Below, piece by piece: positions 1 through 20,100 of a stretch of DNA of 38,727 nucleotides; the first letter of the stretch is position 1; every line of letters begins with the position of its first letter. The notes under the pieces are model-generated. The model worked only from the letters and a program-made list of their open reading frames with translations. It did not search any database and had not been told where the DNA came from. This stretch comes from Bacteroidales bacterium (GTDB lineage: Bacteria; Bacteroidota; Bacteroidia; Bacteroidales; Marinilabiliaceae): the NCBI GenBank assembly GCA_017539645.1, contig JAFYCM010000078.1, positions 1-38,727 on the forward strand, in the 5' to 3' direction. A program made the position numbers and the translations under genes.

Positions 1-2
1 AA

Positions 3-1229
3 CACCCTGAATTTGAACGAACCAAAATTATCGAACGCCTTGTAGAGCCTGAACGCATCATCACTTTTCGTGTGCCTTGGGTCGACGATAAAGGCGAAGT
101 GCAGGTAAATATTGGCTATCGTGTTCAATTCAATAGCGCAATTGGCCCATACAAAGGTGGACTTCGCTTTCACCAGTCGGTCAATCTGAGTATTCTCAAA
201 TTCCTTGGATTTGAGCAGATATTCAAAAACGCGCTCACCACGCTACCTATGGGCGGTGGCAAGGGCGGTTCGGACTTCTGCCCTCGAGGCAAGAGCGACG
301 CCGAGATTATGCGCTTCTGTCAGGCATTTATGAACGAATTGTTCCGCTATATCGGTCCGGAAATCGACGTTCCGGCTGGCGATATAGGCGTTGGCGCAAG
401 GGAGATAGGCTATCTTTTCGGTCAATATAAGAAACTTACACGCGATTGGAGTGGCGTACTTACGGGTAAAGGACTTGAGTTTGGCGGTAGCCTCATTCGC
501 CCAGAAGCAACGGGTTTTGGCGGCCTATATTTTGTAAATGAAATGTTGCAGACTCATGGCCTTTCTATCGAAGGCAAAACGGTAGCAATCAGCGGTTTTG
601 GAAATGTGGCATGGGGCGCAGCCAAGAAAGCTACGCAGTTGGGTGCAAAGGTCATAACTATAAGCGGCCCTGATGGCTATATATACGACCCTGCCGGACT
701 CAACGACGAGAAAATTGCATACATGCTCGAACTACGTGCATCGGGCAACGACGTCTGCAAACCATACGCCGATAAGTTCGCGGGCAGTACTTTTGTGGCT
801 GGCAAACGTCCTTGGGAGGTTAAGTGCGACATTGCTCTCCCTTGCGCAACTCAGAACGAACTCAAGTGTGATGATGCCAATATGCTCATAAAGAATGGTT
901 GCATCTGCGTGGGCGAGATAAGCAATATGGGTTGTACGCTCGAAGCCATTGAGGCTTTTGTGAACAACAAAATGATTTTTGCTCCAGGTAAGGCCGTTAA
1001 TGCTGGTGGTGTGGCAACTTCAGGTCTCGAAATGAGTCAGAATGCTATGCACATCAGTTGGACCGCCGAAGACGTTGATAAGCATTTGCATAATATTATG
1101 CACAACATACATAAGCAATGCGTTCAGTATGGTCAACAGCCCGACGGCTATGTCAACTATGTGAAAGGTGCAAACATCGCTGGCTTCATGAAAGTAGCTA
1201 AAGCCATGATGGCTCAAGGGATTGTGTGA
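3..1229 (+). CDS. gdhA: NADP-type glutamate dehydrogenase, 5' end cut by window
   Basis: Class I hexameric glutamate dehydrogenase, which interconverts 2-oxoglutarate plus ammonium and glutamate in the cytoplasm. The frame is open from base 3, and the first residues read HPEFERTKIIERL, so about 35-40 N-terminal residues lie outside the window. Visible family motifs include GPYKGGLRFH, the PMGGGKGG segment with the catalytic lysine region, PAGDIGVGAREIGY, the substrate/cofactor segment TGKGLEFGGSLIRPEATG and the Rossmann motif SGFGNVAWG. The usual Asp after GGSDF is Cys here (GGSDFCPRG). The C-terminus is complete and followed by a terminator hairpin. Identity is very secure; cofactor preference is inferred from class. 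Confidence 0.96.
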   Translation, partial: HPEFERTKIIERLVEPERIITFRVPWVDDKGEVQVNIGYRVQFNSAIGPYKGGLRFHQSVNLSILKFLGFEQIFKNALTTLPMGGGKGGSDFCPRGKSDAEIMRFCQAFMNELFRYIGPEIDVPAGDIGVGAREIGYLFGQYKKLTRDWSGVLTGKGLEFGGSLIRPEATGFGGLYFVNEMLQTHGLSIEGKTVAISGFGNVAWGAAKKATQLGAKVITISGPDGYIYDPAGLNDEKIAYMLELRASGNDVCKPYADKFAGSTFVAGKRPWEVKCDIALPCATQNELKCDDANMLIKNGCICVGEISNMGCTLEAIEAFVNNKMIFAPGKAVNAGGVATSGLEMSQNAMHISWTAEDVDKHLHNIMHNIHKQCVQYGQQPDGYVNYVKGANIAGFMKVAKAMMAQGIV

Positions 1230-1276
1230 AAAGGATGCCTGTGCTGACTGTTCGTCAGGCTCATGAATAAATACGA

Positions 1277-1316
1277 AGAGAGCGGCCTCAATGGTTGCTC
1301 TCTTTGTTGTTTTTAC
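1277..1316 (+). terminator. Rho-independent terminator of gdhA
   Basis: AGAGAGC (1277-1283) pairs with GCTCTCT (1297-1303) across a 13-nt loop and is followed by the T-rich tract TTGTTGTTTTT. It begins about 48 bp after the gdhA stop. Confidence 0.75.
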
Positions 1317-1424
1317 ATGGATTTATCTGTTTATACTGCAAAAAAAGTCTCCTTGGAACCCGTTTTGGCAGTAGTAAGAATAAATAGTTCAATTCTAAAT
1401 AAGATATTTATCAAATTAGAGGCT

Positions 1425-1432
1425 TATCTTTG
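1425..1432 (+). promoter_or_regulatory. Candidate -7 box of the Fur-family gene
   Basis: TATCTTTG matches the Bacteroidota -7 consensus TAnnTTTG and lies about 21 bp before the preferred ATG at 1454. I do not see a convincing -33 TTG at the right distance. Confidence 0.45.
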
Positions 1433-1453
1433 CGTGAAACAAAAAAATGGCCT

Positions 1454-1882
1454 ATGTCTCATCAAGAAATAGAAAAGATTCTCGCAGAAGTCGGCATTCG
1501 GCCTACGTCGGTGCGACTGCTTGTGTATGAGGCTATTTCTAAGATAAATCACACTTTCTCGCTTGCCGATTTAGAGAAAGAGAACATCAACCTTGAGCAT
1601 AGTAGCATTTTTCGTACACTCACGCTTTTCCACGAACATCATCTCATTCACGAGGTAGACGATGGTAGCGGCTCTACTAAGTACTGTTTATGCACGGGTC
1701 ACGGTATTTGTCATGAGGGTGAAAGCCATCTGCATTTCTTTTGCGTGAAGTGTCATACCACCTTCTGTATTCGTGAAAATAACCTGCCGCAAATCTCTAT
1801 GCCAGAGGGATATACTGTTATGAGTACAAACTTCCTTGTGAAAGGAGTTTGCCCGCAGTGTGCGAATAAGAGTTCCAAGTGA
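1454..1882 (+). CDS. Fur-family metal-responsive transcriptional repressor
   Basis: Fur/Zur/PerR-type regulator of 142 residues. The N-terminal winged helix (about 10-70) contains the RPTSVRLLVYEAI and SSIFRTLTLF segments. The dimerisation/metal part has HLHFFCVKC and GVCPQC, giving two CxxC pairs (C97/C100 and C133/C136) that form the structural zinc site in this family. The frame can be extended upstream to a TTG at 1430, but ATG 1454 is preferred because the promoter box at 1425-1432 would otherwise overlap the coding start. The next gene, 36 bp downstream, is a metal permease, and a perfect inverted repeat lies in that gap. Local control of metal efflux is therefore likely. Whether it senses Zn, Fe or peroxide cannot be told from sequence. 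Confidence 0.88.
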   Translation: MSHQEIEKILAEVGIRPTSVRLLVYEAISKINHTFSLADLEKENINLEHSSIFRTLTLFHEHHLIHEVDDGSGSTKYCLCTGHGICHEGESHLHFFCVKCHTTFCIRENNLPQISMPEGYTVMSTNFLVKGVCPQCANKSSK

Positions 1883-1885
1883 ATT

Positions 1886-1902
1886 TTGCAACTTAGTTGC
1901 AA
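1886..1902. promoter_or_regulatory. Perfect 7-3-7 inverted repeat, candidate metalloregulator operator
   Basis: TTGCAAC-TTA-GTTGCAA sits between the Fur-family stop (1882) and the permease ATG (1919). Its size and position suit a dimeric Fur-type repressor. Binding by the upstream regulator is inference. Confidence 0.5.
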
Positions 1903-1918
1903 CTAATCCGCTGTAACT

Positions 1919-3238
1919 ATGCATCAAAAAATAATTGATGTCATGGAATACATATTTACACTCCTCAACCTGACGGGCGAAATGGCGCCATATCTGCTAC
2001 TTGGCTTCTTGATTGCCGGCTTGTTGCACACCTTCGTTCCGCAAAATCTTTATGCTCAGCATCTTGGTAAACCAACAATGGGTTCGGTGTTGAAAGCAGC
2101 ACTTTTAGGCATTCCGTTGCCGCTCTGCTCATGCGGTGTGATGCCAACTACAGCATCGTTACGCAAAGATGGGGCGAGCAAAGGCGCTTGCGTGTCGTTC
2201 CTAACAGCTACGCCTCAAACGGGCGTCGATAGCATATTGGCTACGTGGTCGCTAATGGGTCTGCCTATGGCTATAATCCGCCCAATAGCAGCATTGTTTA
2301 CGGCTCTTTTCGGCGGTTGGCTTGTAAATAAATATGACGATAATAACACTCATAAAACTAATATTGATGCACCCAAATGCGACTGCGGATGCGATGATCA
2401 TTGCGCTGATGATGAGCATATTACATTTTCGAAAAAACTTATAAATGCCTTCAAATATGCATTCATCGAGATGATGGCCGACATAGGCAAATGGCTTATT
2501 GTTGGTTTGCTTATTGCATCGCTCATAACTGTTTTTGTGCCAGATAGTTGGCTTGCCATATTTGCAGGTAATCCTTGGCTTAGCTACTTACTCGTGATGC
2601 TCATCGCCATACCTATGTATATATGCGCAACTGGTTCAATACCTATTGCCGTGTCGCTACTTATGAAGGGCATCACGCCGGGCGCTGCTCTTGTGATGCT
2701 TATGGCTGGTCCGGCAACGAATATCGCGTCGCTGCTCATAGTGTCGAAGATTCTCGGCAAGCGCACCACCATTCTCTACGTAATATCTATTGTGCTTGGC
2801 GCGCTCGGTTTTGCTGTAATTATCGACTACCTATTGCCATCGGCATGGTTTGCATTGCCACAAACCATTTCGGCTGACATCTGTTGCGCCGAAGAGGTGC
2901 TGACGCCATTCCAGATAGTTTGTGAAGTCATCTTAGGAGCGATGCTCGTCTATGCGCTCATAATACATAGGCACACCCATCACCATCATCACCACGAAGA
3001 CGATGATTGCTGCTGCGAGTGTGAAGCAGAGAATAGACTGGTGTTCAGCGTGAAAGGTATGAATTGCAGCCATTGTGCAGCCAATACCAAGAAAGCCATT
3101 CAGTCGGTTCGTGGCGTCACCGATGTTGATGTCGATCTCGCAGGAGCAAAAGCTTATGTATCAGGTAGTGACATAAATACCGATGAAATAATAAAAGCCG
3201 TAAGCGAACTTGGTTTTGAAATAGAACAAGAGAGCTAA
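1919..3238 (+). CDS. SO_0444-type Cu/Zn efflux permease with C-terminal HMA domain
   Basis: Inner-membrane permease of 439 residues, from the family annotated as SO_0444 Cu/Zn efflux transporters. Two hydrophobic blocks (about 20-135 and 180-340) carry the membrane helices. The first contains the hallmark PLPLCSCGVMP with C70 and C72. Between the blocks is a Cys/His/Asp-rich loop (KCDCGCDDHCADDEH). After the last helix comes a His-rich stretch followed by DDDCCCECE, then an HMA heavy-metal domain from about 372 with GMNCSHC (C383, C386). Three potential soft-metal binding segments support a metal transport role. It lies 36 bp after the Fur-family regulator and is followed by a strong terminator, so the two probably form one unit. 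The exact metal is unknown. Confidence 0.88.
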   Translation: MHQKIIDVMEYIFTLLNLTGEMAPYLLLGFLIAGLLHTFVPQNLYAQHLGKPTMGSVLKAALLGIPLPLCSCGVMPTTASLRKDGASKGACVSFLTATPQTGVDSILATWSLMGLPMAIIRPIAALFTALFGGWLVNKYDDNNTHKTNIDAPKCDCGCDDHCADDEHITFSKKLINAFKYAFIEMMADIGKWLIVGLLIASLITVFVPDSWLAIFAGNPWLSYLLVMLIAIPMYICATGSIPIAVSLLMKGITPGAALVMLMAGPATNIASLLIVSKILGKRTTILYVISIVLGALGFAVIIDYLLPSAWFALPQTISADICCAEEVLTPFQIVCEVILGAMLVYALIIHRHTHHHHHHEDDDCCCECEAENRLVFSVKGMNCSHCAANTKKAIQSVRGVTDVDVDLAGAKAYVSGSDINTDEIIKAVSELGFEIEQES

Positions 3239-3262
3239 CTATGTCATTGATATAAATATGAG

Positions 3263-3291
3263 AGCCTCACCTAAAAAGTGAGGCTTTTTTT
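3263..3291 (+). terminator. Rho-independent terminator after the permease
   Basis: AGCCTCAC (3263-3270) pairs perfectly with GTGAGGCT (3278-3285) around a 7-nt loop, followed by six T. Confidence 0.88.
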
Positions 3292-3410
3292 GTGCCCCTA
3301 TTTTAGGTCGAAACTAAAAAATAAGCTATTTTAGCACGATTTTTTGAGATGAGAGTCGATTTTCGACACCCCATCGACGAAACAATAACATAAAGAAAAA
3401 ACAACTCAAA

Positions 3411-5933
3411 ATGGCTTCAGAAGAAGAAGTATTAGGAGAAAGAATTATTCCGGTAAAAATTGAGGAGCAAATGAAAACGGCGTACATCGACTATTCGATG
3501 TCCGTTATCGTTTCCAGAGCACTCCCTGATGTGCGCGATGGTTTGAAACCAGTACACCGTCGTATCCTCTACGGCATGAACGAGATACACGTTACAGCTA
3601 ATTCCCCGACAAAGAAATCTGCACGTATCGTCGGTGACGTACTCGGTAAGTATCACCCACACGGCGACGCGTCTGTCTATGGCGCGCTTGTGCATTTGGC
3701 TCAGCCTTGGGCTTTGCGCTATCCGCTTATCGACGGTCAAGGTAACTTCGGTTCTATGGACGGCGACCAACCAGCTGCCATGCGTTATACCGAGGTACGT
3801 ATGCGCAAAATTGCCGAAGATATGCTCGTCGACATCGAGAAAGAGACTGTCGACATGGTGCCAAACTTCGATGAATCGCTCGTCGAACCAACCGTATTGC
3901 CAACGCGCATCCCATATCTTTTGGTTAACGGCGGGCAGGGTATTGCTGTAGGTATGGCTACTAATATGCCACCTCACAATATGCACGATGCTATCAACGC
4001 TATCATTGCATACATAGATAATCCTGAAATCAAAATCGACGATCTTATCAAAGTGATAAAAGCGCCCGATTTTCCAACAGGTGCTACTATATATGGCTAT
4101 CAAGGCGTAAAAGATGCATATCTCACAGGTAAGGGCAAGATTGTTATCCGTTCGAAATGCGAATTTGAGCAGATTCACGGCCACGATTGCATCATCGTAA
4201 CAGAGATTCCTTATATGGTAAATAAAGCCGAGATGATTATGCGTATTGCCGACCTTGTGCAAGAAGGCAAACTCTCGGAAATCTCCAATATCAACGATGA
4301 ATCGGACCAACGCGGTCTTCGTATAGTTATAGAACTCAAGCGCGATGCTGTGCCCAATATCGTTCTTAACCATTTGTATAAGAACACAGCACTTCAGTCG
4401 AGCTTCGGTGTAAACAACGTAGCCATTGTAAAAGGTCGTCCTAAGATTCTCAACCTCAAGCAGATAATCGAGTGCTTCTATGAGCATCGTATGGATGTTG
4501 TAGTTCGTCGTACTAAATACGAGAAACGCGAGGCTGAGAAACGCGCTCACATCTTGCAAGGTTTGATTATCGCTAGCGATAATATCGACGAAGTTGTACG
4601 TATTATTCGTGCCGCCGATTCACCCGACAAAGCTAAATCGGACCTTATTGCTCGCTTCGGTCTTGATGAGATTCAGGCTCAAGCAATCGTAGATATGCGC
4701 TTGCGTCAACTCACTGGACTTGAGCAAGATAAACTTCGCGCAGAATACGACCGCCTTGAGAAACTCATAGCATACCTCACCGATTTGCTTGCAAACGAAG
4801 ATTTGCGCAAAGGCGTAGTGAAAAAAGAACTCGAAGAGATTGCCGACAAATATGGTGACGAGCGTCGTACTAACATTGAGTACACCGCCGAAGAGTTCAA
4901 CCCAGAAGATTTCTATGCTGATGAAGATGTTGTAGTAACAGTTTCGCACGTTGGCTACATCAAACGTACGGCACTCAGCGAATTCAAGTCGCAAAGTAGG
5001 GGAGGGGTTGGCTCAAAAGGCTCAAGCACTCGCGACCAAGACTTCATTGAGCATCTCTATTCTGCTAAGATGCACGACACCATGATGTTCTTCACCAAAT
5101 CGGGTCGCTGCTTCTGGAAGAAAGTTTATGACATACCAGAAGGCAACAAAGCTTCAAAAGGTCGTGCTATACAGAATTTGCTCAATATCGAAACGGGTGA
5201 TTCTGTCAAGGCATTCATCACTGTTCGTGGCTTGAACGATACCGATTACACCAATTCGCACTACATAATTATGGCTACCAAGCGAGGCATAATCAAGAAA
5301 TCGCTCCTTGCCGATTACTCGCGTCCTCGTCAGAATGGTATCATAGCTATATCTATAAAAGATGGTGACGAATTGCTCCGCGCTACGCTCACCGACGGCG
5401 ATTCCGACTTGATGATGGCTACACTACGTGGTCGTGCAATACGCTTCAACGAGAATAAGATTCGTTGCATAGGTCGCACAGGCGCTGGTGTTCGAGGCAT
5501 CACGCTCGAAGGAGACGACGATGCTGTGGTTGGTTTCGTTTCGCTTCCACAAGACTCTACCGATAATGTATTCGTACTCTCGGAGAAAGGTTACGGTAAG
5601 CGTTCGTCAATCGATGAATATCGTATCACCAACCGAGGTGGCAAGGGCGTTAAGACGCTCAATATCACCGATAAAACTGGTCTTGTAATAGCTATCGATT
5701 CTATCAACGACGATAATGATCTTATGATTATCAATCGTTCGGGCATAACTATACGTATTCCAGCAGTAGAAATTCGCGTAAGCGGACGTGCAACGCAGGG
5801 CGTTAAGTTGATAAACCTCACCAAGAAGAACGATAGCATTGCCTCTGGTACCGTTGTTCCTCATAGCGATGACGAACCAGAAGATATGGAAGAGGGTAGT
5901 GCTACCCCAGTAGAACAGCCTACTAACGAATAA
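3411..5933 (+). CDS. gyrA: DNA gyrase subunit A
   Basis: Breakage-reunion subunit of DNA gyrase, 840 residues, usual length. The N-terminal domain holds [20 protein letters not shown] and the catalytic tyrosine Y126 in [10 protein letters not shown]. The C-terminal beta-pinwheel begins around residue 500 with [10 protein letters not shown] at the GyrA-box position, the form I associate with Bacteroidota, and ends in an acidic tail. In the quinolone-resistance region the sequence is [13 protein letters not shown]: Ala87 and Gly91 stand where E. coli GyrA has Ser83 and Asp87. ATG 3411 fits the known N-terminus. Upstream lie a terminator and a 119-bp leader with two copies of CTATTTTAG and the dyad GTCGA-TTT-TCGAC (3355-3367). 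A secreted TPR protein follows 37 bp downstream. Confidence 0.97.
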
Positions 5934-5970
5934 ATATTTATATAGTTAACATATAAAACAGAACAAGAAA

Positions 5971-7161
5971 ATGAAAAAGATAGTATTAGTTATGACAGCC
6001 TTGGTTGCTGCCAGCACAGCTACTTGGGCTCAGAAAGCCAAAGTAAAATCGGCTGAAAATTGCGTGATACTAAAGCAATTCGATAAAGCTAAATCGGACA
6101 TTGATGAAGCTATGGTTCACCCTAAGACTGCAGAAGAGCCAAACACTTGGCTTACCGCTGCCGACGTATATATCGAATGCGCCATCAACGGCAAGGGCGA
6201 AGCTGATTTTCTCGACAAAGCTAAAAGCTTCATCGAGAAAGCTGAAGAGCTCGATGCAAAAGGCAATGCCAAAGGCAAGAATATTGGCAAAGCTCAAAAA
6301 GCTATTCTGAAATACTACCAGCAGTTCAACGGTAAGGCTCAGCAGTATGGTAGCAAAGCTTGGGGCGACAAGGACTTCAAGAATGCCAAAAAAGCTTTCG
6401 ACTACGCTATTTGGTCGAACAAACAGCGTTTGAAAGAGGCTTACAACGAGATTGCAGATACCACCGAAATCTACAACTCGGCTCTCGCAGCTATGCAAGA
6501 ACCTGATTACAAGTTTGCTGCAGAACGTTTCATGAAAACTGCAGAACTTGGCTACGATGGTCCAATGTCGATTCTTCGTGCAAACTATTGCTTCGAGCAA
6601 ATGGGCGATTCTGCAAGCATGGAAAAAACTCTCAAATATGGTTTCCAAAAATATCCTGAGAGCAAAGATGTGCTCACTACACTTATTCAATACTATTTGA
6701 GCGCACAACGTTCGTCAGAAGCTCTCGTTTATTTGAATCAAGCTATCGAGAAAGATCCTACAAATGTTCAATACTATTTCGCTCGTGGCTGCTTGAACGA
6801 GAAAATCGATGTAGAAAAGGCTATTGAAGACTACAACATCGCTCTCGAAAAAGATCCTAAATTCTTCAACGCGCTCTACAACCTTGGCGTTGTATACTAC
6901 AACAAAGGCATTGAGATTATGAACGTAGCAAGCGGCGAACGCGACAACAAGAAGTACGACGCATTGGTTAAACAAGCTAACGACCAATTCATGAAATCGG
7001 CACCTTACCTCGAAAGAGCTGTTGAGGCTACCGATAGCAAAGAGAACAAAAAATACTCTCTCGATGCTTTGAAATCTATCTACTATCGTCTTGTTAGCGC
7101 AGAACTCGTTCCCGATGAAAAATATTCTTCAGTAATGAGCCGCCTAAGAGAGCTCGAGTAA
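5971..7161 (+). CDS. Secreted tetratricopeptide-repeat protein
   Basis: A 396-residue protein with a clear signal peptide (MKKIVLVMTALVAASTATWAQ, probable cleavage after TWA) and no later membrane segment, so probably periplasmic. TPR-like helical pairs occupy most of the chain, best seen at about 235-300 (ALVYLNQAIEKDPTNVQYYF, then IEDYNIALEKDPKFFNALYN). Codon use is rich in Lys/Ala/Glu. It follows gyrA by 37 bp and ends at a strong terminator, so the two may be co-transcribed. A TPR protein after gyrA is an arrangement I know from other Bacteroidales. No enzymatic motif is visible; a protein-binding scaffold role is inferred from the repeat type. Confidence 0.85.
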   Translation: MKKIVLVMTALVAASTATWAQKAKVKSAENCVILKQFDKAKSDIDEAMVHPKTAEEPNTWLTAADVYIECAINGKGEADFLDKAKSFIEKAEELDAKGNAKGKNIGKAQKAILKYYQQFNGKAQQYGSKAWGDKDFKNAKKAFDYAIWSNKQRLKEAYNEIADTTEIYNSALAAMQEPDYKFAAERFMKTAELGYDGPMSILRANYCFEQMGDSASMEKTLKYGFQKYPESKDVLTTLIQYYLSAQRSSEALVYLNQAIEKDPTNVQYYFARGCLNEKIDVEKAIEDYNIALEKDPKFFNALYNLGVVYYNKGIEIMNVASGERDNKKYDALVKQANDQFMKSAPYLERAVEATDSKENKKYSLDALKSIYYRLVSAELVPDEKYSSVMSRLRELE

Positions 7162-7191
7162 TTGATGTAAATATCGTTATTTTACATACTT

Positions 7192-7225
7192 AAGACCGTT
7201 GAGAACCCTCAGCGGTCTTTTTTTT
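7192..7225 (+). terminator. Rho-independent terminator after gyrA-TPR unit
   Basis: A 12-bp stem (7192-7203 with 7208-7219, one G-T pair) built on AAGACCG/CGGTCTT has a 4-nt loop and runs into eight T. Confidence 0.88.
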
Positions 7226-7415
7226 GCATTTTATTACACCTCAATATTCTATAAATCGGAGTTAGTTTATAATTTCGCATGCTAACAAATGATAGGATAA
7301 GGCTTGTGGCATACACATTGTTATTTCGCAAAACCACTATAAATATGAATAATCAACCTAACACCATTTCGCCTTTTTTATCATAAGACAAGCACTATTT
7401 ATTCTCATAACTATT

Positions 7416-8816
7416 ATGACTACAACACATTCAATTAACAGTACGAAAATCGAGGACGAGAAAGTCATCATACGTCGTATAGAAGAAATTATCGAGCTGC
7501 TATTGTTTTCTACAGCATTCTATTTTATGTGTCTGCACTTTTATTCAGACATTGTGCTTGGCATAAGAGTATATGGTAGGGTAGCGGAGGTTCTGCTTTA
7601 TGGCATTCTTTGCTTCTTGGTTATACATATAAATGAAGGTTTCCGCTTTGGCTATATGCGATTCCAAGAGATTCTAACTTCGCAAAACATTGCAATGCTG
7701 ATAGTTAATAGCATCAGCTACATACTTCTATGTTTGGTGTCTGTTTCGGTGCTCAACGTTGTACCATTCTTGATACTTATGGTTGTTGAGTTTGTTATTT
7801 CCTACGTATGTGTATACTTCTCGACACGATTCTACCATCAATTCCACGTTCCATTCAACATGCTAATGATATATGGCGCTGAGAATTACAACGATTTGAA
7901 AATCAAGGTCGATGGACGTCCCGATAAATACCGCATCACTAAGATTGTTCCAGCAACACTTCCATTCGAAGAACTCACCGCAATGATTCCCGAGTTCGAT
8001 GCAGTACTTATTTCGGATATACCTGCCGAGCCGCGTAACAACCTGCTTAAATGGTGCTATACCAATAGCATACGTACATATCTAACGCCCAAAATATCAG
8101 ACGTTATAGAGGCTGGTTCGCAGGATATTTACCTATTCGATACTCCGCTCAAATTGGTCAAAGGCTTAGGTCTGTCGATAGGCGACCGCATAGCAAAACG
8201 TACATTTGACCTGATTGTCAGCTGCTTAGCTTTCATAGTACTTAGTCCGATTTTCCTCATAGTAGCAATAGCAATAAAACTTGAGGATGGCGGTCCTGCA
8301 TTTTATATGCAAGAGCGAGTTACACAAGGCGGCCGACGCTTCATGATTTATAAATTCCGCTCAATGATAGTCAATGCCGAGAAGAATGGCGAGGTTATAC
8401 CTGCTACCGACCACGATTCGCGCATCACCAAAGTTGGCCGTATCATCAGAGCTTGCCGCGTGGACGAACTTCCACAGCTCATCAATATTATCAATGGCGA
8501 TATGTCAATCGTTGGTCCACGTCCAGAGCGTGTTGAGCACGTCGAGAAATACACCGAATTGATTCCTGAATTTCAACTTAGAACCAAAGTAAAAGGCGGT
8601 CTCACTGGTATGGCGCAGATTTATGGCAAATACAACACGTCGCCGCTCAATAAGCTCAAATTCGATCTTATGTACATCGAGAATTACAACTTCATGCTCG
8701 ATTTGAAGTTGATAATTATGACCATCAGAATTCTTTTCCAAAAAGAATCAACTGAGGGATTCGACCAAACTGCCAGCATGCTTATGCACGACAGCGTGGC
8801 AAACAGCAACAAGTAG
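7416..8816 (+). CDS. Polyprenyl-phosphate sugar phosphotransferase (WcaJ/WbaP-like)
   Basis: Initiating sugar-1-phosphate transferase for exopolysaccharide or O-antigen-like glycans, acting at the inner membrane on undecaprenyl phosphate. Its 466 residues contain four N-terminal membrane helices (about 25-135), a central CoA-binding-like/Rossmann segment (about 148-235), a further helix (264-288) and the C-terminal catalytic bacterial sugar transferase domain. That domain shows ERVTQGGRRFMIYKFRSM, VDELPQLINIINGDMSIVGPRPE with the conserved Asp-Glu pair D350/E351, and KVKGGLTGMAQ. ATG 7416 follows a 190-bp leader. No other glycan genes are adjacent, so it may serve a locus elsewhere. The sugar specificity cannot be read from sequence. 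Confidence 0.92.
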   Translation: MTTTHSINSTKIEDEKVIIRRIEEIIELLLFSTAFYFMCLHFYSDIVLGIRVYGRVAEVLLYGILCFLVIHINEGFRFGYMRFQEILTSQNIAMLIVNSISYILLCLVSVSVLNVVPFLILMVVEFVISYVCVYFSTRFYHQFHVPFNMLMIYGAENYNDLKIKVDGRPDKYRITKIVPATLPFEELTAMIPEFDAVLISDIPAEPRNNLLKWCYTNSIRTYLTPKISDVIEAGSQDIYLFDTPLKLVKGLGLSIGDRIAKRTFDLIVSCLAFIVLSPIFLIVAIAIKLEDGGPAFYMQERVTQGGRRFMIYKFRSMIVNAEKNGEVIPATDHDSRITKVGRIIRACRVDELPQLINIINGDMSIVGPRPERVEHVEKYTELIPEFQLRTKVKGGLTGMAQIYGKYNTSPLNKLKFDLMYIENYNFMLDLKLIIMTIRILFQKESTEGFDQTASMLMHDSVANSNK

Positions 8817-8837
8817 AAATAATAATTATAAATATTG

Positions 8838-8870
8838 ATGCGTGGCATCCACAAGATGCTGCGCATTTTT
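8838..8870 (+). terminator. Rho-independent terminator after sugar transferase
   Basis: A 12-bp stem (8838-8849 with 8855-8866, two central G-T pairs) encloses a 5-nt loop and is followed by five T. Confidence 0.82.
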
Positions 8871-9015
8871 ATTTTACGATTATCTATCACAATGGTTTCT
8901 TAGCGCCTCGATAATGTGCTCATAATAACTTCTAATATTTGTCTTAGAATTTGCATTATGTTAAGTTGGGTGTTGGGGGAGTGCAAAACACAGATTTCTG
9001 GACAGAAAGAAACGA

Positions 9016-12984: not shown

Positions 12985-14313
12985 TCATTCAATCTCAACC
13001 AATCCTCTTTTATATGCTTGCCACTGCTCATCGTTTTGCCACAAATCGATGTCGGGCCAATGGTCGATGCTATTTATAAGCGTATCCATCAATCTGCGCA
13101 AGGCAAGGGCAAGGTTCGGGCCGCGCGAAGTATTTAGCAGCACCACAAAGCAGATATTATCTGGTCTACGTTCTATTATGGCAGATGTGGCAGCAAGAGT
13201 TCCCGTTCGATACCAAATGGAATCGCCAATTGTTCCGCGCCAACCAAGTGGATCGAACCCCACTTGACGATGAATCATAGTATCGATAGAGACAGCAGAC
13301 AACTGGTCGGGCACATCATCGAATCCATCGATAGTGAGCGTAAGTTTCAGCAAATCTGTGGCCGAAGCTACCCAACCGCCAGCAGAACCAAGAGTCTGAA
13401 TATCAACGCCTCCGTATGAACGTGGAACGCGAACATCACCATCTGTATAATCGGCAACGCCCGACGTATCTGGCTCATAGTAAACTACCTCGCGTGGTAG
13501 GCAATGCGACTTGTGAGAATAGCCAATCTGCATATCGTAAATACCAAGCGGAGCAAGCACATTGCTACGAACATATGTCTCGTATGGCATAGAAGAGGCC
13601 TTAGCAACCACCTCGCCCAGAATGCCATAACCAAAATTAGAGTAAACCGAAGCCGTTCCTGGCGTAAAATGCATCGACTTATCCTGCATAAAACGAATAA
13701 TAGTATGCATATCAATTGGTAGTTGTTTACCCATCAAGCGCGCAATGGTATGCGACATAAACATCGGGTCGCCATAGCGAGGTAACCAACCGCCAGAGTG
13801 ATTAAGTAGTTGATATACTGTAATATCGCCCATGCGACGGTCCTTATAAGTGAGATACTCATCATTGTTGAGCACACCCACATTACCAAAAACCTTCTGA
13901 TGTAAACAGATGCGATTCTGCTGAATTAGACGCATAATAGCAGTTGCCGTTATCAACTTGGAAACACTCGCAACACGCATTCTGTTATAAGGTTCCATAG
14001 GTACAGAATCGGCCACATTGCTAAATCCATATCCCTTGGCATAGACGAGACGCCCATGGTAACTAATAGCAACTACTGCACCACCTTCTAAGTATTCGTG
14101 GTGAAGGAAACGCTGAATATTATCATCAATTACCTTATATGTAGTATCGTTGTCGGAGTTATGTATGGGCGTAAGAGGTGATTCTGTATTATCTGTGTTA
14201 TTATTTACAGAGACATCACCATTAGTAGACGTAAACCAGCAATAAGCAACATAAACACCAACAACAATAGCAAACGAAACTGATAACTTAACAACAAACC
14301 AATAGTGTTTCAT
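12985..14313 (-). CDS. Beta-lactamase-family serine hydrolase, membrane-anchored
   Basis: Class C/AmpH-like serine hydrolase of 442 residues with one N-terminal membrane segment (about 8-27) that likely anchors the enzyme in the periplasm. The active-site SxxK motif is S116-V-S-K119 in RVASVSKLITA; the second motif is YSN in ASVYSNFGYGILGE; the third is RTGTLAA in place of a KTG/HTG box. Family members act on peptidoglycan peptides, D-amino-acid esters or lipids rather than necessarily on antibiotics. Its ATG overlaps the stop of the upstream DUF4105 gene (ATGA at 14310-14313), so translation is probably coupled and the two products may act together in the envelope. Confidence 0.9.
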   Translation of the reverse strand: MKHYWFVVKLSVSFAIVVGVYVAYCWFTSTNGDVSVNNNTDNTESPLTPIHNSDNDTTYKVIDDNIQRFLHHEYLEGGAVVAISYHGRLVYAKGYGFSNVADSVPMEPYNRMRVASVSKLITATAIMRLIQQNRICLHQKVFGNVGVLNNDEYLTYKDRRMGDITVYQLLNHSGGWLPRYGDPMFMSHTIARLMGKQLPIDMHTIIRFMQDKSMHFTPGTASVYSNFGYGILGEVVAKASSMPYETYVRSNVLAPLGIYDMQIGYSHKSHCLPREVVYYEPDTSGVADYTDGDVRVPRSYGGVDIQTLGSAGGWVASATDLLKLTLTIDGFDDVPDQLSAVSIDTMIHRQVGFDPLGWRGTIGDSIWYRTGTLAATSAIIERRPDNICFVVLLNTSRGPNLALALRRLMDTLINSIDHWPDIDLWQNDEQWQAYKRGLVEIE

Positions 14314-15464
14314 CTGATTCTATTATAAAGACAGATATTTCGTAGAAACAGTGAAATGGAAAAGAGAATTGCCAAAGTAGGTGGTTCTTGAACTCCAAAT
14401 ACGGTTAACATAATAAAGACGACGAAAAACAGAACGTTTCCTGCGATTGACCACATCATCAAATTGTTTCCAACGAGAGATTTTCTACGAATAAGTTCAA
14501 TAACCATTGGTAAGTATAGTAATGATGCCCAAAGAACATTGATATTCATATCCGTCACACTATGGTTGGTAAACAGCCACAAGAACCAAAACAACAATCC
14601 CAATAGAAAGGCAGCGCTAAACAAAATAGAATCGAATAGTTTACATACGATATGTTTACGGAAGCCAATATACGAAACGAATAGTGTAAACAGCAGAATG
14701 AGTAAACCAATAGAAGTTGGTGAACCGATAAAGTTTACACTATTGTCGACATCGCCTTGTTTACTAATAATAGTATGTGAACTCTCAATCAAACCTGCTT
14801 GAAGAAATAGAGAATCTACATACATAGGTAAGTATGCCTTATCGTATAGCGATATTGGGGCATCAGTCTTAGCACCTAAGATCAAATCTATGCCTTGTGC
14901 CGACCACGATTTGGGGCTATTGCAAATATGTAAGAGGTCACGAAATGTTTCATTTGTAACCTTTTTATACATACTTCCGTCAATATTTGCTACCTGAAAA
15001 ACCAAATCTCTGATGCGCGTTGCACAATTGTCGTAGAAGAAGTCATAACGATAGTAGCGATTTTGTGGACGAGCATTCTCAGCAAGAAGCATAAAAAGTC
15101 TGTCGCGCTGTTCGCTGTTGAGTTTCAACTCGCTCTCTACAACTTGTCTATTTTCAGCTTTATAGCTGTATGTAAAACGGCTCATAAACCCCGTAGATAA
15201 CATATAATCGAGGTCTCCACGGACAAATTTTGCTATAAAGAATGGGGTATCGAAATCGAATGTTCCGTAATTGAACACTACATCTATGCCAAGCGAATCA
15301 TCTTTTACACGCAAAGCACTATGGCCAAACGAAGTATACAACTCTTCACCAGATGAGCATGTCAACAATGAAATCGTCGATTTAGACGATAATGCAAATG
15401 TGTTTACCGAAATTGTGTTTACAATAACAGCAAACAAAACTGCCAAGCGATGTTGTAAACTCAT
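14310..15464 (-). CDS. DUF4105/Lnb-type membrane protein, candidate lipoprotein N-acyltransferase
   Basis: A 384-residue protein with a signal-like N-terminus (to about 26), a periplasmic DUF4105 domain (about 30-200) and four or five C-terminal membrane helices (about 250-380). The domain, which I know as the N-terminal periplasmic domain of the Lnb lipoprotein N-acyltransferases, shows its conserved His in TSFGHSALRV (H48) and Cys in FYDNCATRIRD (C147), the expected Cys/His pair of a papain-like active site. It lies 5 bp after pyrD and overlaps the serine hydrolase by four bases. Acylation of lipoproteins is inferred from the domain; the architecture matches. The coding sequence contains many GTTTAC/GTAAAC hexamers. 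Confidence 0.8.
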   Translation of the reverse strand: MSLQHRLAVLFAVIVNTISVNTFALSSKSTISLLTCSSGEELYTSFGHSALRVKDDSLGIDVVFNYGTFDFDTPFFIAKFVRGDLDYMLSTGFMSRFTYSYKAENRQVVESELKLNSEQRDRLFMLLAENARPQNRYYRYDFFYDNCATRIRDLVFQVANIDGSMYKKVTNETFRDLLHICNSPKSWSAQGIDLILGAKTDAPISLYDKAYLPMYVDSLFLQAGLIESSHTIISKQGDVDNSVNFIGSPTSIGLLILLFTLFVSYIGFRKHIVCKLFDSILFSAAFLLGLLFWFLWLFTNHSVTDMNINVLWASLLYLPMVIELIRRKSLVGNNLMMWSIAGNVLFFVVFIMLTVFGVQEPPTLAILFSISLFLRNICLYNRIR

Positions 15465-15469
15465 TATGA

Positions 15470-16381
15470 TTATGCTTGTAAACTACCTATAATTTCTTTT
15501 ACTGATGTAAACTGATGACGAACCATATAATCTTTTATGCCGTCAACAATCTTTATAGTAATAGAAGGATCAATGAAATTGGCTGTACCTATTTGTACTG
15601 CAGAAGCGCCTGCAATTATGAATTCTACAGCATCTGTAGCATTCATAATACCGCCAAGACCGACAATAGGAATCTTTACTGAGTTGTAGACTTGCCAAAC
15701 CATTCGCAACGCAATCGGTTTTACAGCAGCACCAGACAAACCACCTGTAATAGTAGATAATAGTGGTTTACGACGTTCTGCATCGATAGCCATAGAAAGA
15801 ATGGTGTTAATCAACGAAACCGAATCGGCACCAGCAGCTTCCACTGCTTTGGCAATTTCGGCAATACTTGTAACGTTGGGCGAGAGCTTCACCATCAAGT
15901 GTTTCTTGTAAACTTTTCGTACCGCATCTACTACTGCCGAAGCCTGTTCGCAACTTGTTCCGAATGCCATTCCTCCTTGTTTTACGTTAGGACACGAGAT
16001 ATTTAGCTCGATAGCAGGTATATGCTCTAACTCGTTAATTCGCTCAGCGGTAGCCACATAGTCGCTAATAGATGAGCCTGAAACGTTTACAATTACATTG
16101 GTATCGTAGTCTGTCAACTTTGGGTATATGTTTTTACAGAAGTAGTCTACGCCTTTGTTTTGCAAACCAACAGCATTAATCATACCTTGAGGAGTCTCAG
16201 CCAAACGCGGATAATCATTACCCTCACGCGGATTTAGGGTTGTGCCTTTTACTATGAAACCGCCTAAATCCGATAAGTTTATAAAATCCTCATATTCATA
16301 TCCATAGCCAAAAGTACCAGACGCTGTAAGCACTGGATTTTTTAGCTTCAATCCGTTTATATCTACGCTTAGATCTACCAT
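15470..16381 (-). CDS. pyrD: Dihydroorotate dehydrogenase B, catalytic subunit
   Basis: Class 1B dihydroorotate dehydrogenase, 303 residues, which oxidises dihydroorotate to orotate in pyrimidine synthesis and passes electrons to PyrK. Visible motifs: [13 protein letters not shown], the lysine in [28 protein letters not shown] carrying the catalytic cysteine C130, VKLSPNV, and the FMN phosphate-binding [20 protein letters not shown]. It overlaps pyrK by 7 bp, the usual pyrK-pyrD arrangement, and the DUF4105 gene starts 5 bp after its stop. It holds five of the GTTTAC-type hexamers, including two at its 3' end. Confidence 0.96.
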
Positions 16382-17148
16382 TCTAATTGATTTATATTGA
16401 AAACTGGGCCTTCAGAACAAACGCACCGATGACCTTCTGTTGTTTTAGTTACGCAGCAGAGGCAAACACCAATGCCACAAGCCATTTTATTCTCGAGAGA
16501 GACTTCACATTGTACGTTAACAGTCTGGCAAGCCTTGCCTACAGCCTTCATCATTGGCGTTGGCCCACAAACCATAACAGCGTCAAAATCAGTGAGATGA
16601 TTCATAATATCATGGTTCGTAACCATTCCTTTGGTACCAACCGAACCATTCTCTGTGGTTATGTTTACTTTGCCAACTTGCTCAAAATCAGCAATACAAA
16701 GTAAACCTTCGGCATCGCGAGCGCCAAAGAGGTACTCAACATTTACACCTTTACTCTTCAATACTTTACCTAAGTATAAAAGAGGAGCAGTACCAACGCC
16801 GCCACCAACGAGCAAAACTTTTCTGTATTGAGTGTCAGTTGTAAATCCATTTCCAAGTGGGTAAACAACGTTTACAGTGTCACCAACATGTAGTTTACTG
16901 AGTAAATTAGTGCCATTGCCAACGTTTTTTACAAGTAAACTAACAATATTATCACTATAGTTTACATCATGAATGGAAATAGGACGGCGTAAAAATGTAT
17001 GAGCAGTATCAGGTATTTGAACCTCGACGAACTGCCCTGCATTAATCTGCGGAAGTTTACTTGGATGCTGTATAACTAACCTAAAAAAGCCAACACCAAT
17101 AGGACTATTCTCTACTATTGTAAAGTCGGTAATAAAGCGTTTCAACAT
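16375..17148 (-). CDS. pyrK: Dihydroorotate dehydrogenase B, electron-transfer subunit
   Basis: FAD/[2Fe-2S] subunit of 257 residues that links PyrD to NAD+. The FAD-binding domain has RRPISIHDV (about 55), the NAD-binding part has [17 protein letters not shown], and the C-terminal cluster motif has C224, C229, C232 and a fourth Cys at 242 or 244 within [10 protein letters not shown]...CVCSEGPVF. It overlaps pyrD by 7 bp. A perfect -7 box (TATATTTG, minus strand) lies 30 bp upstream of the ATG, so this is probably the first gene of the pyrK-pyrD-DUF4105-hydrolase unit. Eight of the GTTTAC-type hexamers lie in its sequence. Confidence 0.95.
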
Positions 17149-17177
17149 ATATTTTGGTTATATTTTGCTATTACGCA

Positions 17178-17185
17178 CAAATATA
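17178..17185 (-). promoter_or_regulatory. Candidate -7 promoter box of the pyrK operon
   Basis: On the minus strand TATATTTG matches TAnnTTTG exactly and is 30 bp from the pyrK ATG. The -33 element is not obvious. Confidence 0.5.
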
Positions 17186-17238
17186 ACTGCATTGTCTAAT
17201 ATAAACTCATTGTTTTTGTTGCTTAGTAAAGAACACTG

Positions 17239-17269
17239 CTATTATCACCTAATTATCATGTGATAATAG
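17239..17269. promoter_or_regulatory. Perfect 10-bp inverted repeat between HTH gene and pyrK
   Basis: CTATTATCAC (17239-17248) and GTGATAATAG (17260-17269) flank an 11-nt spacer, 6 bp beyond the stop of the HTH gene and about 90 bp upstream of pyrK. It lacks a T-run on the minus strand, so an operator or mRNA-stabilising stem is as likely as a terminator. Confidence 0.5.
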
Positions 17270-17274
17270 ATGTA

Positions 17275-17847
17275 CTATTTATCGGTTGACTTTGGTAAGT
17301 ATTGACTAAATGTGCCATCGTTGTAGAATATCACAATGCGCTCTATAGCAGCAACTGGCTTCTCTACGCTTTTAGGGTCGATAGCTATGTATTTAGCTGC
17401 AAACTCAGCAGCATTGTCCGTTTCCTGATTTATAGAGCTGTTTTTTACAGTTGTGTATGGTTTTTCATCCTTATTACGGTTTACAGATGTACGTGTCTTT
17501 GGTAATGTGCTTATCGGCTTTTCTGAATTTACATCAACCTCTTCTGTGTTTACATTGTTTGCTTTTACTACTTCAGGTTTACTCAAATTACTAAACAGAG
17601 AAGGAGTCCCATCATGTAAACTGTCATCGGCAATAGTCATGTTACCAATGCCATTTACAAACCAATCACGACTGACATTGGGAAATGCCTCGAGAATCTT
17701 TTCGATTGTCTCTTCGCTAAAATGACCGCCACGGCCATTGGCTGACGTTATATGCGAGATAGTTGCTTTGGAAATGCCACAGCGTTGCGCAAAGTCCGAT
17801 TTACTTATAGCATAGTGCTGTAAAAGTTCATTTAGACGATCCTTCAT
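17275..17847 (-). CDS. Cro/CI-type helix-turn-helix regulator
   Basis: A 190-residue DNA-binding protein. An XRE/CI-like helix-turn-helix occupies about residues 4-62 (LNELLQHYAISKSDFAQRCG, then ISKATISHITSANGRGGHFS) followed by WFVNGIGNM, a common continuation in Bacteroidota regulators. A polar, probably disordered linker (about 75-155) leads to a short hydrophobic C-terminal block, IERIVIFYNDGTFSQYLP, of unknown role. ATG 17847 is chosen because the HTH begins immediately after it; upstream in-frame codons run through AT-rich, low-complexity sequence. Six GTTTAC-type sites lie within 150 bp upstream, and one (17884) overlaps a promoter-like ACTTTG. Self-binding to that motif is my inference. 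Confidence 0.8.
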   Translation of the reverse strand: MKDRLNELLQHYAISKSDFAQRCGISKATISHITSANGRGGHFSEETIEKILEAFPNVSRDWFVNGIGNMTIADDSLHDGTPSLFSNLSKPEVVKANNVNTEEVDVNSEKPISTLPKTRTSVNRNKDEKPYTTVKNSSINQETDNAAEFAAKYIAIDPKSVEKPVAAIERIVIFYNDGTFSQYLPKSTDK

Positions 17848-18588
17848 ATTGTAAATGATTAACTGAATAAACAATAGTTCAAAGTAAACAATAAAATATT
17901 TACAAACAAAATTATCATTTGCAAAAACGGTGTTTACACGGATTAATAAATCACTATGTAAACCACAGTACATAAATGGTAGTTTACGTAGATAAAGTAT
18001 TTATATAATGCTATTTGTTTACAATGGTAAACTATAATTTATATGTATGGAGTGTTGATCTATCAGAAATGTATGTTTGAGCAATCTGATGTCACTTATT
18101 GACATATTGTTAAAATTCCTTTCTAATTAGTTGATTTTTAGAGGTCAGATAATTATCAACAAGTGTTAATAACCTCATTTGTGAATATATACATAACTAT
18201 AAAAGCTTAGAAAATAAAGGCTTGCGTTATATGCCGATCAATCGCTTTACATGATCGTTGTATATCATTGTTTTTTAGATAGTTAGAAATAAATATAGGT
18301 ATAATTCTTTATTAGCAGGCTAATTTTTAGACATCAATGTATTATATTACTTTATATGATCGTTATAAATAACTGATTTTATGTATTTTATATATGCATA
18401 AACGATAGATTTCTCTATTGAATATAAATTCACTATGGGTAAAATGGTTGTAATTTTACCTGTTTACATCTGTAAAAAAGTGTAAATGCTATCAACATGC
18501 TACTCCCCCACTCCACTTTATGTTGCATTGCTTCGGTTTGGTGTGTGCTGATATAATTTTTGCTAACTTTAGGTATTAATTTATAGTT
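17848..18588. other. 740-bp AT-rich divergent intergenic region
   Basis: No gene is visible between the HTH gene (-) and DUF4301 (+). It contains seven GTTTAC-type sites, six of them at 17884-18032 and including the inverted pair GTTTAC-AATG-GTAAAC (18017-18032). There is one TTATCAACA (18153-18161), one base off the DnaA-box consensus TTATCCACA. ATGATCGTT occurs twice, about 105 bp apart (near 18250 and 18357). A dyad cluster lies at 18438-18490. Near the DUF4301 start, TTTG (18537-18540) and TAACTTTA (18564-18571) form a weak promoter match. Divergent promoters are certain to be needed here; an origin-like role is only a possibility. Confidence 0.6.
18438..18478. promoter_or_regulatory. Stacked inverted repeats upstream of DUF4301 gene
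   Basis: GGTAAAAT (18438-18445) and ATTTTACC (18453-18460) form a perfect 8-bp dyad with a 7-nt spacer. It is followed immediately by TTTACA-TC-TGTAAA, which includes the last GTTTAC site (18462), and then by a half copy, TGTAAA. The layout resembles an operator for dimeric regulators. Confidence 0.45.
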
Positions 18589-20100
18589 ATGATTACAGAA
18601 CAAGACAAAGCGCTGCTTGGAGCTAAAGGCATCTCTGAGCAACAGTTAGAAAAGCAACTCGCACAGTTCAAAACAGGCTTCCCATTCGCTGATATTCAAC
18701 GTCCTGCAACGATTTCGGACGGCATTGCACAAGCCGATAAATCGTCGCTTGACAGACTTATTGCCACCTACGACAAGGCCATTTCAGATGGTGTAAAAGT
18801 GGTAAAATTCATACCTGCATCTGGCGCGGCTACTCGAATGTTTAAGAATATGTTTGAGTTTATGAACGCTCCTGCCGAAAAACAGGCCACAATGAAGGGT
18901 GAAAAGCCGTATAGCGACTTCTTTGGCCGATTCGACGATTTCGCTTTTGCTGAAGCATTGAAGGCTACAAAGCCAGCTAATGATGTTGACATCATTACTA
19001 AAATGTTGACAGATAGCGGTTTGAATTACGGGCAAAAGCCTAAAGGCGTGGTTTTGTTTCATAGATATGGCGATACTTCGCTCACTGCTGCTGAGGAGCA
19101 TATATACGAGGGCTTGAGCTATGCCAAGACTAAAGACAACGAAATTAATTTACACTATACCGTTAGTCCACAACACCTCGAACTCTTCAAAGAGGCAACT
19201 CAAAAAACGAAGGAATTGGTAGAGAAAAAGCATGGCTGTAAGGTTAACATAACATTTTCATTTCAAAAGCCATCAACTGACACCATTGCAGCCACGATGG
19301 AGAATGAGCTATTCCGCGATGAGAAGGGTAATTTGGTTTTTCGACCGGGTGGACACGGCGCGTTGATAGAGAATTTGAACGATATCGATGCCGATATTGT
19401 CTTCATAAAAAATATTGACAACGTTGCACATCAATATTTGTTGCCAATAGCAACTCAGTATAAAAAAGTTATCGCTGGATATGGCATCGAGCGCAAACAA
19501 CGTATCGATGGCATTTTGAGTAGATTGGACAAAAACGACTTTAGTGCTATAGCTGAGGCGCTCGATTTTATGAAGAGCGAGCTCAAGACTACCCTGCCAG
19601 CCGACTTCGACAAGAAGAGCGACAAAGAAAAATCGGCCTTCATATTTGATGTGCTCGATCGTCCATTGCGCGTGTGTGGTATGGTGAAGAACGAAGGCGA
19701 GCCTGGTGGCGGTCCATTCTGGGTGAAAGGTAGCAACGGACAAGTTACGCTTCAGATTGTGGAGAGCGCGCAGATAGACACCAATGATGCGCAGAAAGCT
19801 GCCATTATGAAGCAGAGTACACATTTCAACCCAGTGGACCTCTTCTGCTGCCTACGCGACAGAAACGGCAAGAAATACGACCTGAAAAATTTTGTAGATA
19901 CAAACGCAGGCTTCATATCATACAAGAGCCTCAACGGTAAAGACTTGAAAGCTATGGAGCTCCCTGGACTTTGGAATGGTGCCATGGCTAATTGGCTCAC
20001 GTTTTTCGTGGAAGTGCCTATCGAGACATTCAATCCGGTGAAGACCGTTGTCGATTTGCTTCGTCCACAGCACCAGCCGAAGAAGTTGAAAGTTATATAG
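18589..20100 (+). CDS. DUF4301 family protein
   Basis: A 503-residue cytoplasmic protein of the Bacteroidota DUF4301 family, recognised from its N-terminus (MITEQDKALLGAKGISEQQL, then FKTGFPFADIQRPATISDGI), KFIPASGAATRMFK, GVVLFHRYG, FRPGGHGALIENLNDIDADIVFIKNIDN and EGEPGGGPFWV. The SGAATRMF and GGHGALIENLN stretches recall nucleotidyl-transferase/phosphosugar-binding loops, and the family may be enzymatic, but I know of no established function. No signal peptide or membrane helix. It stands alone on the plus strand, with its own terminator, between the motif-rich divergent region and dnaA. It contains no GTTTAC-type hexamer, so the field stops sharply at its 5' side. Confidence 0.85.
   Translation: MITEQDKALLGAKGISEQQLEKQLAQFKTGFPFADIQRPATISDGIAQADKSSLDRLIATYDKAISDGVKVVKFIPASGAATRMFKNMFEFMNAPAEKQATMKGEKPYSDFFGRFDDFAFAEALKATKPANDVDIITKMLTDSGLNYGQKPKGVVLFHRYGDTSLTAAEEHIYEGLSYAKTKDNEINLHYTVSPQHLELFKEATQKTKELVEKKHGCKVNITFSFQKPSTDTIAATMENELFRDEKGNLVFRPGGHGALIENLNDIDADIVFIKNIDNVAHQYLLPIATQYKKVIAGYGIERKQRIDGILSRLDKNDFSAIAEALDFMKSELKTTLPADFDKKSDKEKSAFIFDVLDRPLRVCGMVKNEGEPGGGPFWVKGSNGQVTLQIVESAQIDTNDAQKAAIMKQSTHFNPVDLFCCLRDRNGKKYDLKNFVDTNAGFISYKSLNGKDLKAMELPGLWNGAMANWLTFFVEVPIETFNPVKTVVDLLRPQHQPKKLKVI

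Follow-up and report, generated by a model that had tools for sequence, protein, structure and literature searches.

What reads a dense field of one short DNA word that runs through several genes, and what purpose might it serve? The question is raised by a 38,727-nucleotide stretch of a Bacteroidales genome (assembly GCA_017539645.1, contig JAFYCM010000078.1; the whole stretch is termed the window), in which the hexamer GTTTAC and its reverse complement GTAAAC are crowded into positions 14231-18467, across the lnb-like, pyrD, and pyrK genes, a gene for a helix-turn-helix (HTH) protein, and an intergenic region. We propose, with a probability of about 0.5, that the hexamers of this field are half-sites of the HTH protein encoded within it, multiplied into an expanded array, and that the protein would have a terminus-located role like that of MatP or ZapT. 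Sequence comparison is regarded as establishing that the array exists, that it has been under selection, that it goes with the HTH gene, that a palindrome lies upstream of this gene in other Bacteroidota, and that the locus is close to dif and the GC-skew maximum. The interpretation offered in an earlier note on this DNA is partly supported.

Counted on both strands, the hexamer occurs 56 times in the window, 35 times inside the field and 21 times outside, which corresponds to 8.3/kb versus 0.61/kb in the remaining window, a 13.6-fold difference. The earlier note had likewise arrived at 35 sites in the field, while its figures of about 17 sites elsewhere and a 16-fold contrast were not exact, although the strong contrast itself stands. 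Both orientations and all three codon phases are occupied as it had described, and the field tapers on the left (13480, 13642, 13725, and 13902) and stops on the right with a last site at 18462, ahead of the DUF4301 gene at 18589. When 13.4-18.5 kb was compared with the rest of the window, GTAAAC/GTTTAC was the most enriched of all hexamers (39 versus 2.65 expected), and its one-change neighbours were enriched 0.2-3.6 fold against 14.9 fold for the exact word. Dinucleotide shuffles of the field (n = 500) gave a mean of 3.3 sites and a maximum of 9. In a background sample of 376,121 bases, drawn as 20 stretches and covering about 11% of the same genome, the density was 0.54 sites/kb, and at most 8 sites fell into any of 1461 overlapping windows of 4237 bases.

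Over the whole genome, 24 same-orientation pairs with a gap of at most 30 bases were found, including 9 in the field, versus 29 for a reversed-pattern control, and the convergent pairs numbered 9, including 3 in the field, versus 14. Since these totals do not exceed the control totals, the pairs outside the field are background, and no second field or regulon was seen in the genome-wide pair searches or the 376-kb sample. Two short tandem repeats are present and do not explain the field, and iterons or a fixed spacing were also rejected, as the pair distances across the genus scatter around no dominant value. A 22-base tandem repeat with four GTTTAC, located at G000:C53:6075-6146, is unrelated to the field.

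The word has been selected as DNA, across gene boundaries, as the earlier note had maintained. When codons were permuted within genes, leaving protein and codon use unchanged, the minus-strand genes of the window exceeded expectation throughout: pyrK (16375..17148) has 8 sites versus 1.8, pyrD of the class 1 family (15470..16381) 5 versus 1.2, the lnb-like lipoprotein N-acyltransferase gene (14310..15464, an assignment below the NCBIfam cut-off) 10 versus 1.8, and the beta-lactamase-family gene at the tapering edge (12985..14313) 5 versus 1.8. Over 13 loci, namely the window and 12 relatives from its genus, the observed and expected numbers were 77 versus 18.1 for lnb, which is the most site-rich field gene across the genus, 39 versus 9.8 for pyrK, 29 versus 8.4 for pyrD, and 18 versus 7.0 for the HTH gene, and the codon-usage model that the earlier note had suggested as a check does not explain the excess. 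The flanking genes gave 7 versus 4.8 (bla-like, 8 loci) and 1 versus 2.2 (DUF4301, 6 loci), and dnaA gave 3 versus 1.2 (3 loci). The nearest relative, G001, keeps 18 of the 39 window sites, compared with 308 of 1784 (17%) hexamers of two G/C (binomial P = 3e-5), and these 18 are found among its own 26 sites, from which it follows that individual sites have been retained and yet also turned over.

Within the genus, the field follows the Cro/CI-type HTH gene and not dnaA. An HTH orthologue was found in 13 of the 15 genus genomes, the two without it being G002 (88% complete) and G007 (74% complete), and the gene adjoins pyrK, pyrD, and lnb in all 12 relatives fetched. It is divergent from pyrK in four genus loci, where the field persists. 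The earlier note had placed the field within 2-6 kb of dnaA, which is right for the window genome and not general across the genus: among the 12 genus genomes with both genes, dnaA lies within 10 kb of the HTH gene in three (G000, G001, and G006), about 32 and 95 kb away in G004 and G008, and on another contig in seven, and the field accompanies the HTH gene also where dnaA is absent. A function at the origin or for dnaA was rejected, since dnaA does not stay close across the genus and no DnaA boxes lie near the field. Among the 12 relatives, GTAAAC ranks first or second in enrichment around the HTH gene in nine, but other words lead in G005 (GTATAC), G006 (TGTAAA), and G003 (GTGTAA). The recognition helix starts with SK in ten field genomes, and with GK, SS, and SQ in G005, G006, and G003, respectively. 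Among family loci outside the genus, the start is QR in all those whose helix was read (n = 16); G019, a genome that clusters with the genus and carries 6 sites upstream of the gene, has NK. In a tree built from joined PyrD and PyrK protein rows (with stop signs dropped and L159, which has no pyrK, left out), G003 and G006 are sisters, and they have the highest GC among the genus loci; because of this kinship and high GC, the covariation of helix and word is suggestive only.

The best candidate for the reader of the field, judged from these comparisons, is the HTH protein itself. Its gene (17275..17847, minus strand) encodes 190 amino acids, the start at 17847 being inferred from the alignment of orthologues in a reading frame that is open to 17973. 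The product belongs to the Cro/CI (XRE) type by its match to Pfam HTH_3 (PF01381; 27.6 bits, cut-off 23), while no NCBIfam model scored above its cut-off and a comparison with solved structures gave weak HTH matches only. An N-terminal HTH is joined to a conserved C-terminal tail, IERIVIFYxDGTFxxYxP, by a linker that varies from 16 to 131 residues (median 62). The tail was present in 96 of the 99 orthologues read, with close variants in the other three, a count that is biased upward because the C-terminal peptide was one of the two search peptides with which the named loci were found. The family was matched in 58 of 65 genomes of the bacterial family (own genus included), with a single match in 47. 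A search across bacterial and archaeal genomes gave 262 relatives, of which 79 named loci were kept; by their record titles these are Bacteroidota, including Flavobacteriia, Cytophagales, and Bacteroidales. In the counts of hexamers, upstream sites, palindromes, and tails, L113 was excluded for want of an HTH match, and G042 was counted twice (L058 and L169) in the latter three.

Outside the genus, the same word is concentrated at the promoter of the HTH gene. Within 600 bp upstream of the gene in 86 loci, 267 GTAAAC were counted versus 29.6 expected, and they were present in 79 of the loci. Here they form a palindromic operator, TGTTTACANNTGTAAACA, with the second half-site at a fixed spacing (63 pairs at distance 8). 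In 20 named genomes, 46 palindromes with at most one mismatch were detected, of which 22 were assigned by coordinates to the HTH locus, spread over 13 genomes; the other 24, set against 38 matches of the reversed-pattern control, show no excess, so that its own locus would seem to be the one main target of the HTH protein. The genus carries mostly single half-sites, and around its sites (n = 278) the second half of the palindrome is at background level. In the window, the position where other Bacteroidota carry palindromic operators is the AT-rich intergenic region at 17848..18588, with 7 sites; at 18017..18032 it retains one pair in palindrome spacing, with GTTTAC and GTAAAC at a distance of 10 bases. 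The palindromic operators have turned into dispersed half-sites in the genus. In G011, six near-identical hairpin-like elements, which start with GTTTACAGCCGCTCC or its mirror, were observed on contigs C5, C9, C17, C20, C22, and C34 and are likely a dispersed repeat.

The landmark that the earlier note could not see is a predicted site for chromosome-dimer resolution, dif, a 28-mer with XerC and XerD arms (TTGTCTTAGAA-TTTGCA-TTATGTTAAGT) at 8939..8966 on the plus strand, 5.3 kb from the field. Such predictions are not new for Bacteroidota, as 14 plus 5 strains are reported in PMC3025954. Our profile was seeded with 11 sites near HTH genes, and the core and family patterns were searched genome-wide; the seed pattern gave 17 matches in HTH loci and 1 in other stretches. 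The core pattern occurs exactly once in 13 of the 15 genus genomes, the source genome included, with 0 control matches, and a family version occurs once each in 40 of the 65 family genomes, none of them of the genus, with 3 control matches overall, leaving 13 of the 53 family genomes outside the genus without a match. Both dif and the HTH gene were found in 47 genomes, and in 41 of these they lie on one contig, 4.7-41.2 kb apart: 11 of 12 in the genus (4.7-29 kb, median 9.5) and 30 of 35 outside it (4.9-41 kb, median 8.3). Outside the genus, dif lies downstream of the HTH gene in 30 of 30; in the genus it is downstream in 7 of 11 and upstream in 4 of 11, and since those four have the HTH gene inverted relative to pyrK, dif in the genus is on the pyrK side throughout. 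Moreover, a dif-like site was seen 0.3-5.5 kb from the HTH gene in 16 loci of Cytophagales and Rikenellaceae, with scores of 18.5-39.7, where the background over 1.74 Mb reached 14.4 at best; in the five of these that were read the neighbours are genes other than pyrK.

Several neighbours of these landmarks were noted in passing. The predicted dif of the window sits between a sugar transferase gene (end 8816) and a BspA-type leucine-rich repeat gene. The window also contains gyrA at 3411-5933, a gene that is near the HTH gene in several family genomes, and in eight Flavobacteriia (L061, L063, L065, L072, L089, L104, L107, and L122) the HTH gene has, at a distance of 2.8-4.8 kb, a gyrA-related gene (27-30% to the window gyrA) that may encode topoisomerase IV subunit A. 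A distant pyrD (28-29%, perhaps of the quinone type) follows the HTH gene in L159, L076, L082, and L093, and the link with pyrD may therefore span two enzyme classes.

The terminus position was also supported by GC skew in ten genomes chosen for long contigs (six Flavobacteriia and four of the family, with 130-150 kb on each side), four of which had already been sampled. The raw skew to the left of the HTH gene was higher than to the right in 10 of 10, positive on the left in 9 of 10, and negative on the right in 10 of 10, turning from positive to negative across the gene in nine, and the skew at third codon positions (GC3 skew) changed sign across the gene in 8 of 10, the exceptions being G076 and G081. 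The cumulative skew of G033, G038, and G077, which is coarse (155-320 kb steps), peaks within about 0.45 Mb of the HTH gene. In G081 the raw profile has its peak on the other side, at about 0.35 Mb, and the GC3 profile has it about 0.27 Mb away. The cumulative skew minimum of G033 and G038 does not coincide with dnaA, which may make dnaA a poor origin marker in the family.

On these grounds the HTH family can be described as conserved in Bacteroidota, mostly with one match per genome, with its gene near the predicted dif and its putative sites clustered at its own locus. A possible mechanism begins with the N-terminal HTH, which would bind the GTTTAC sites, so that many HTH molecules would coat several kilobases of DNA beside dif. 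The conserved C-terminal tail, held on its variable linker, might then dock the coated DNA to a partner, for which the divisome, FtsK/XerCD, and SMC are candidates. Such docking would serve to hold or organise the terminus during division and dimer resolution, in the manner reported for MatP and ZapT. In the genus, the few palindromic operators have been replaced by dozens of single half-sites through pyrK, pyrD, and lnb. The wider proposal, in which Bacteroidota have a terminus system of their own, with a Cro/CI protein that has a conserved docking tail, is encoded near dif in much of the phylum, binds mainly at that place, and ties the terminus to division or dimer resolution, and with the 4-kb half-site field as its form in one genus, is put forward tentatively, at slightly under even odds; the dense field is in any case a one-genus elaboration and not the core of such a system.

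Several observations weigh against the terminus role. Other genera keep the HTH gene near dif with few upstream sites and the dense field is confined to one genus, which implies that the field is not required for a basic terminus role. The covariation of helix and word depends on three exceptions, and the sister pair G003 and G006, which lacks the field, is also the GC-richest of the genus. In coding sequence only (pyrK, pyrD, and lnb together), GTAAAC ranks first among hexamers in only 7 of the 14 loci (the 13 genus loci and G019), second or third in two, and outside the best six in five. In six genomes, all of them draft assemblies, the HTH gene is not on the contig that bears dif, and another six gave a dif match but no HTH match. 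In 34 Flavobacteriia loci, no convincing dif was found with a profile derived from Cytophagales and Bacteroidales (best score 17.8, at L080). In the adjacent 10 kb, among 72 loci with 7 kb or more to either side, the GC3 skew was higher on the left in only 35 and the raw skew in 43, so that the HTH gene is near, not at, the skew switch. Finally, sites at the protein's own locus, taken alone, would suit plain autoregulation as well. That explanation is the main rival, although we consider it unlikely: the HTH protein would repress its own gene and pyrK-pyrD-lnb, the intragenic sites would serve as roadblocks or in cooperative silencing, and the closeness to dif would be inherited gene order. 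The palindromes upstream of the gene's own start in many Bacteroidota, the coincidence of the field edges with the HTH-pyrK-pyrD-lnb unit, and the failure of the pair and palindrome searches to reveal a second cluster elsewhere all speak for it, whereas the near-equal site orientations relative to pyrD (145 versus 133, summed over loci), the four loci in which the field remains despite a divergent HTH gene, and neighbours that vary across the phylum while dif stays near are at odds with it.

The other readings are considerably weaker. A replication fork trap like Tus/Ter or RTP, in which bound sites beside dif would stop forks, agrees with the terminus position and with sites beside the protein's own gene; it is nevertheless improbable, because the sites share no common orientation and no opposed cluster appeared on the far side of dif in the three stretches that extend well beyond it (window 1-8938, where 3 sites lie, L020, and L022), the regions further out being covered by the pair searches only. 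Isolated half-sites without a second half, many per locus, would also suit a titration array that soaks up the HTH protein and sets its free level, yet titration needs no sites beside the gene or dif and 18 of 39 positions are conserved, which makes it quite improbable. It is very improbable that another protein reads the field, such as XerD in an SMC-unloading role, or DnaA: the terminus position and a predicted dif arm, TGTTAAG, two differences from TGTAAAC, would suit such a reader, but that arm retains TTATGTTAA, unlike the field word TGTAAAC, 79 of 86 loci have their sites linked to the HTH start, and the single DnaA-box-like site of the window is distant, at 1096. An artefact of composition or codon usage has next to no probability left; the field DNA is AT-rich (GC 0.34-0.40 per kb) and GC content at third codon positions is somewhat below the flanks in several genus loci, but the excess in lnb, pyrK, and pyrD outlasts the codon shuffles over 13 loci, one-change neighbours stay at or below 3.6-fold versus 14.9, and dinucleotide shuffles reach 9 at most, so that these controls, together with the site retention in G001, refute it.

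If the array does belong to a terminus-bound protein, Bacteroidota, a major gut and marine phylum, would possess a readily testable one, defined by one gene, one word, and one locus. Outside enteric bacteria and Caulobacter, the means by which the terminus is marked and coupled to division are described as unclear (PMC7188993). Among the matches listed in a literature search, whose coverage excludes most subscription papers, there was no report of the HTH protein, the word, or a Bacteroidota terminus-binding protein. The field furthermore illustrates clearly how selection can maintain a DNA-binding array within coding sequence while its positions turn over, which offers an evolutionary test of operator spread.

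Among known systems, RTP and Tus have their gene beside their own sites in the terminus, with polar, paired sites; the gene beside sites in the terminus is a shared feature, whereas the orientations here are mixed and the three stretches that extend well beyond dif showed no opposed cluster. SinR of Bacillus is a Cro/CI-type HTH protein that recognises short words in several arrangements at biofilm-regulon promoters, and it resembles the HTH protein in domain and in its use of short words but is not known to have a terminus link. Of the analogies drawn in the earlier note (ParB/Noc, MatP, and titration), that with ParB/Noc is not sustained, since the HTH protein has no ParB domain in Pfam, and a ParB replacement was discarded because a separate ParB is present in 14 of the 15 genus genomes; G003, though 98% complete, has neither the field nor a ParB match. 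The analogy with MatP holds for position. MatP is a terminus-specific protein of another fold with its own site, matS, which is palindromic, is present in several copies near dif, and is spread over about 800 kb. The terminus location indicated here by dif and skew is comparable; in contrast, Pfam gives HTH families only for the HTH protein and not the MatP family, and instead of sites over the ter macrodomain there are half-sites in one cluster, with distant palindromes not above control. MatP and ZapB are, moreover, found only in enteric bacteria, as stated in PMC7188993. The immunity repressor of Cluster A mycobacteriophages is an HTH protein with many asymmetric single sites, termed stoperators, which occur throughout the phage genome at promoters and in short intergenic spaces and are aligned with transcription (PMC9283540). 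An HTH protein with many asymmetric single sites is thus common to both, whereas the sites here are intragenic, confined to one locus, and without orientation bias. A further parallel comes from ZapT of Caulobacter crescentus, a link between the terminus and the Z-ring annotated as a transcription regulator of the MerR family, for which PMC7188993 gives 10 chromatin immunoprecipitation peaks, mostly inside open reading frames and all but one within the terminus-biased 1.3-2.2 Mb, with no consensus motif. The HTH protein is not of the MerR family by Pfam, and one 4-kb array of an exact word beside dif takes the place of dispersed peaks; what the two would have in common is a regulator-type protein with intragenic sites and a bias toward the terminus.

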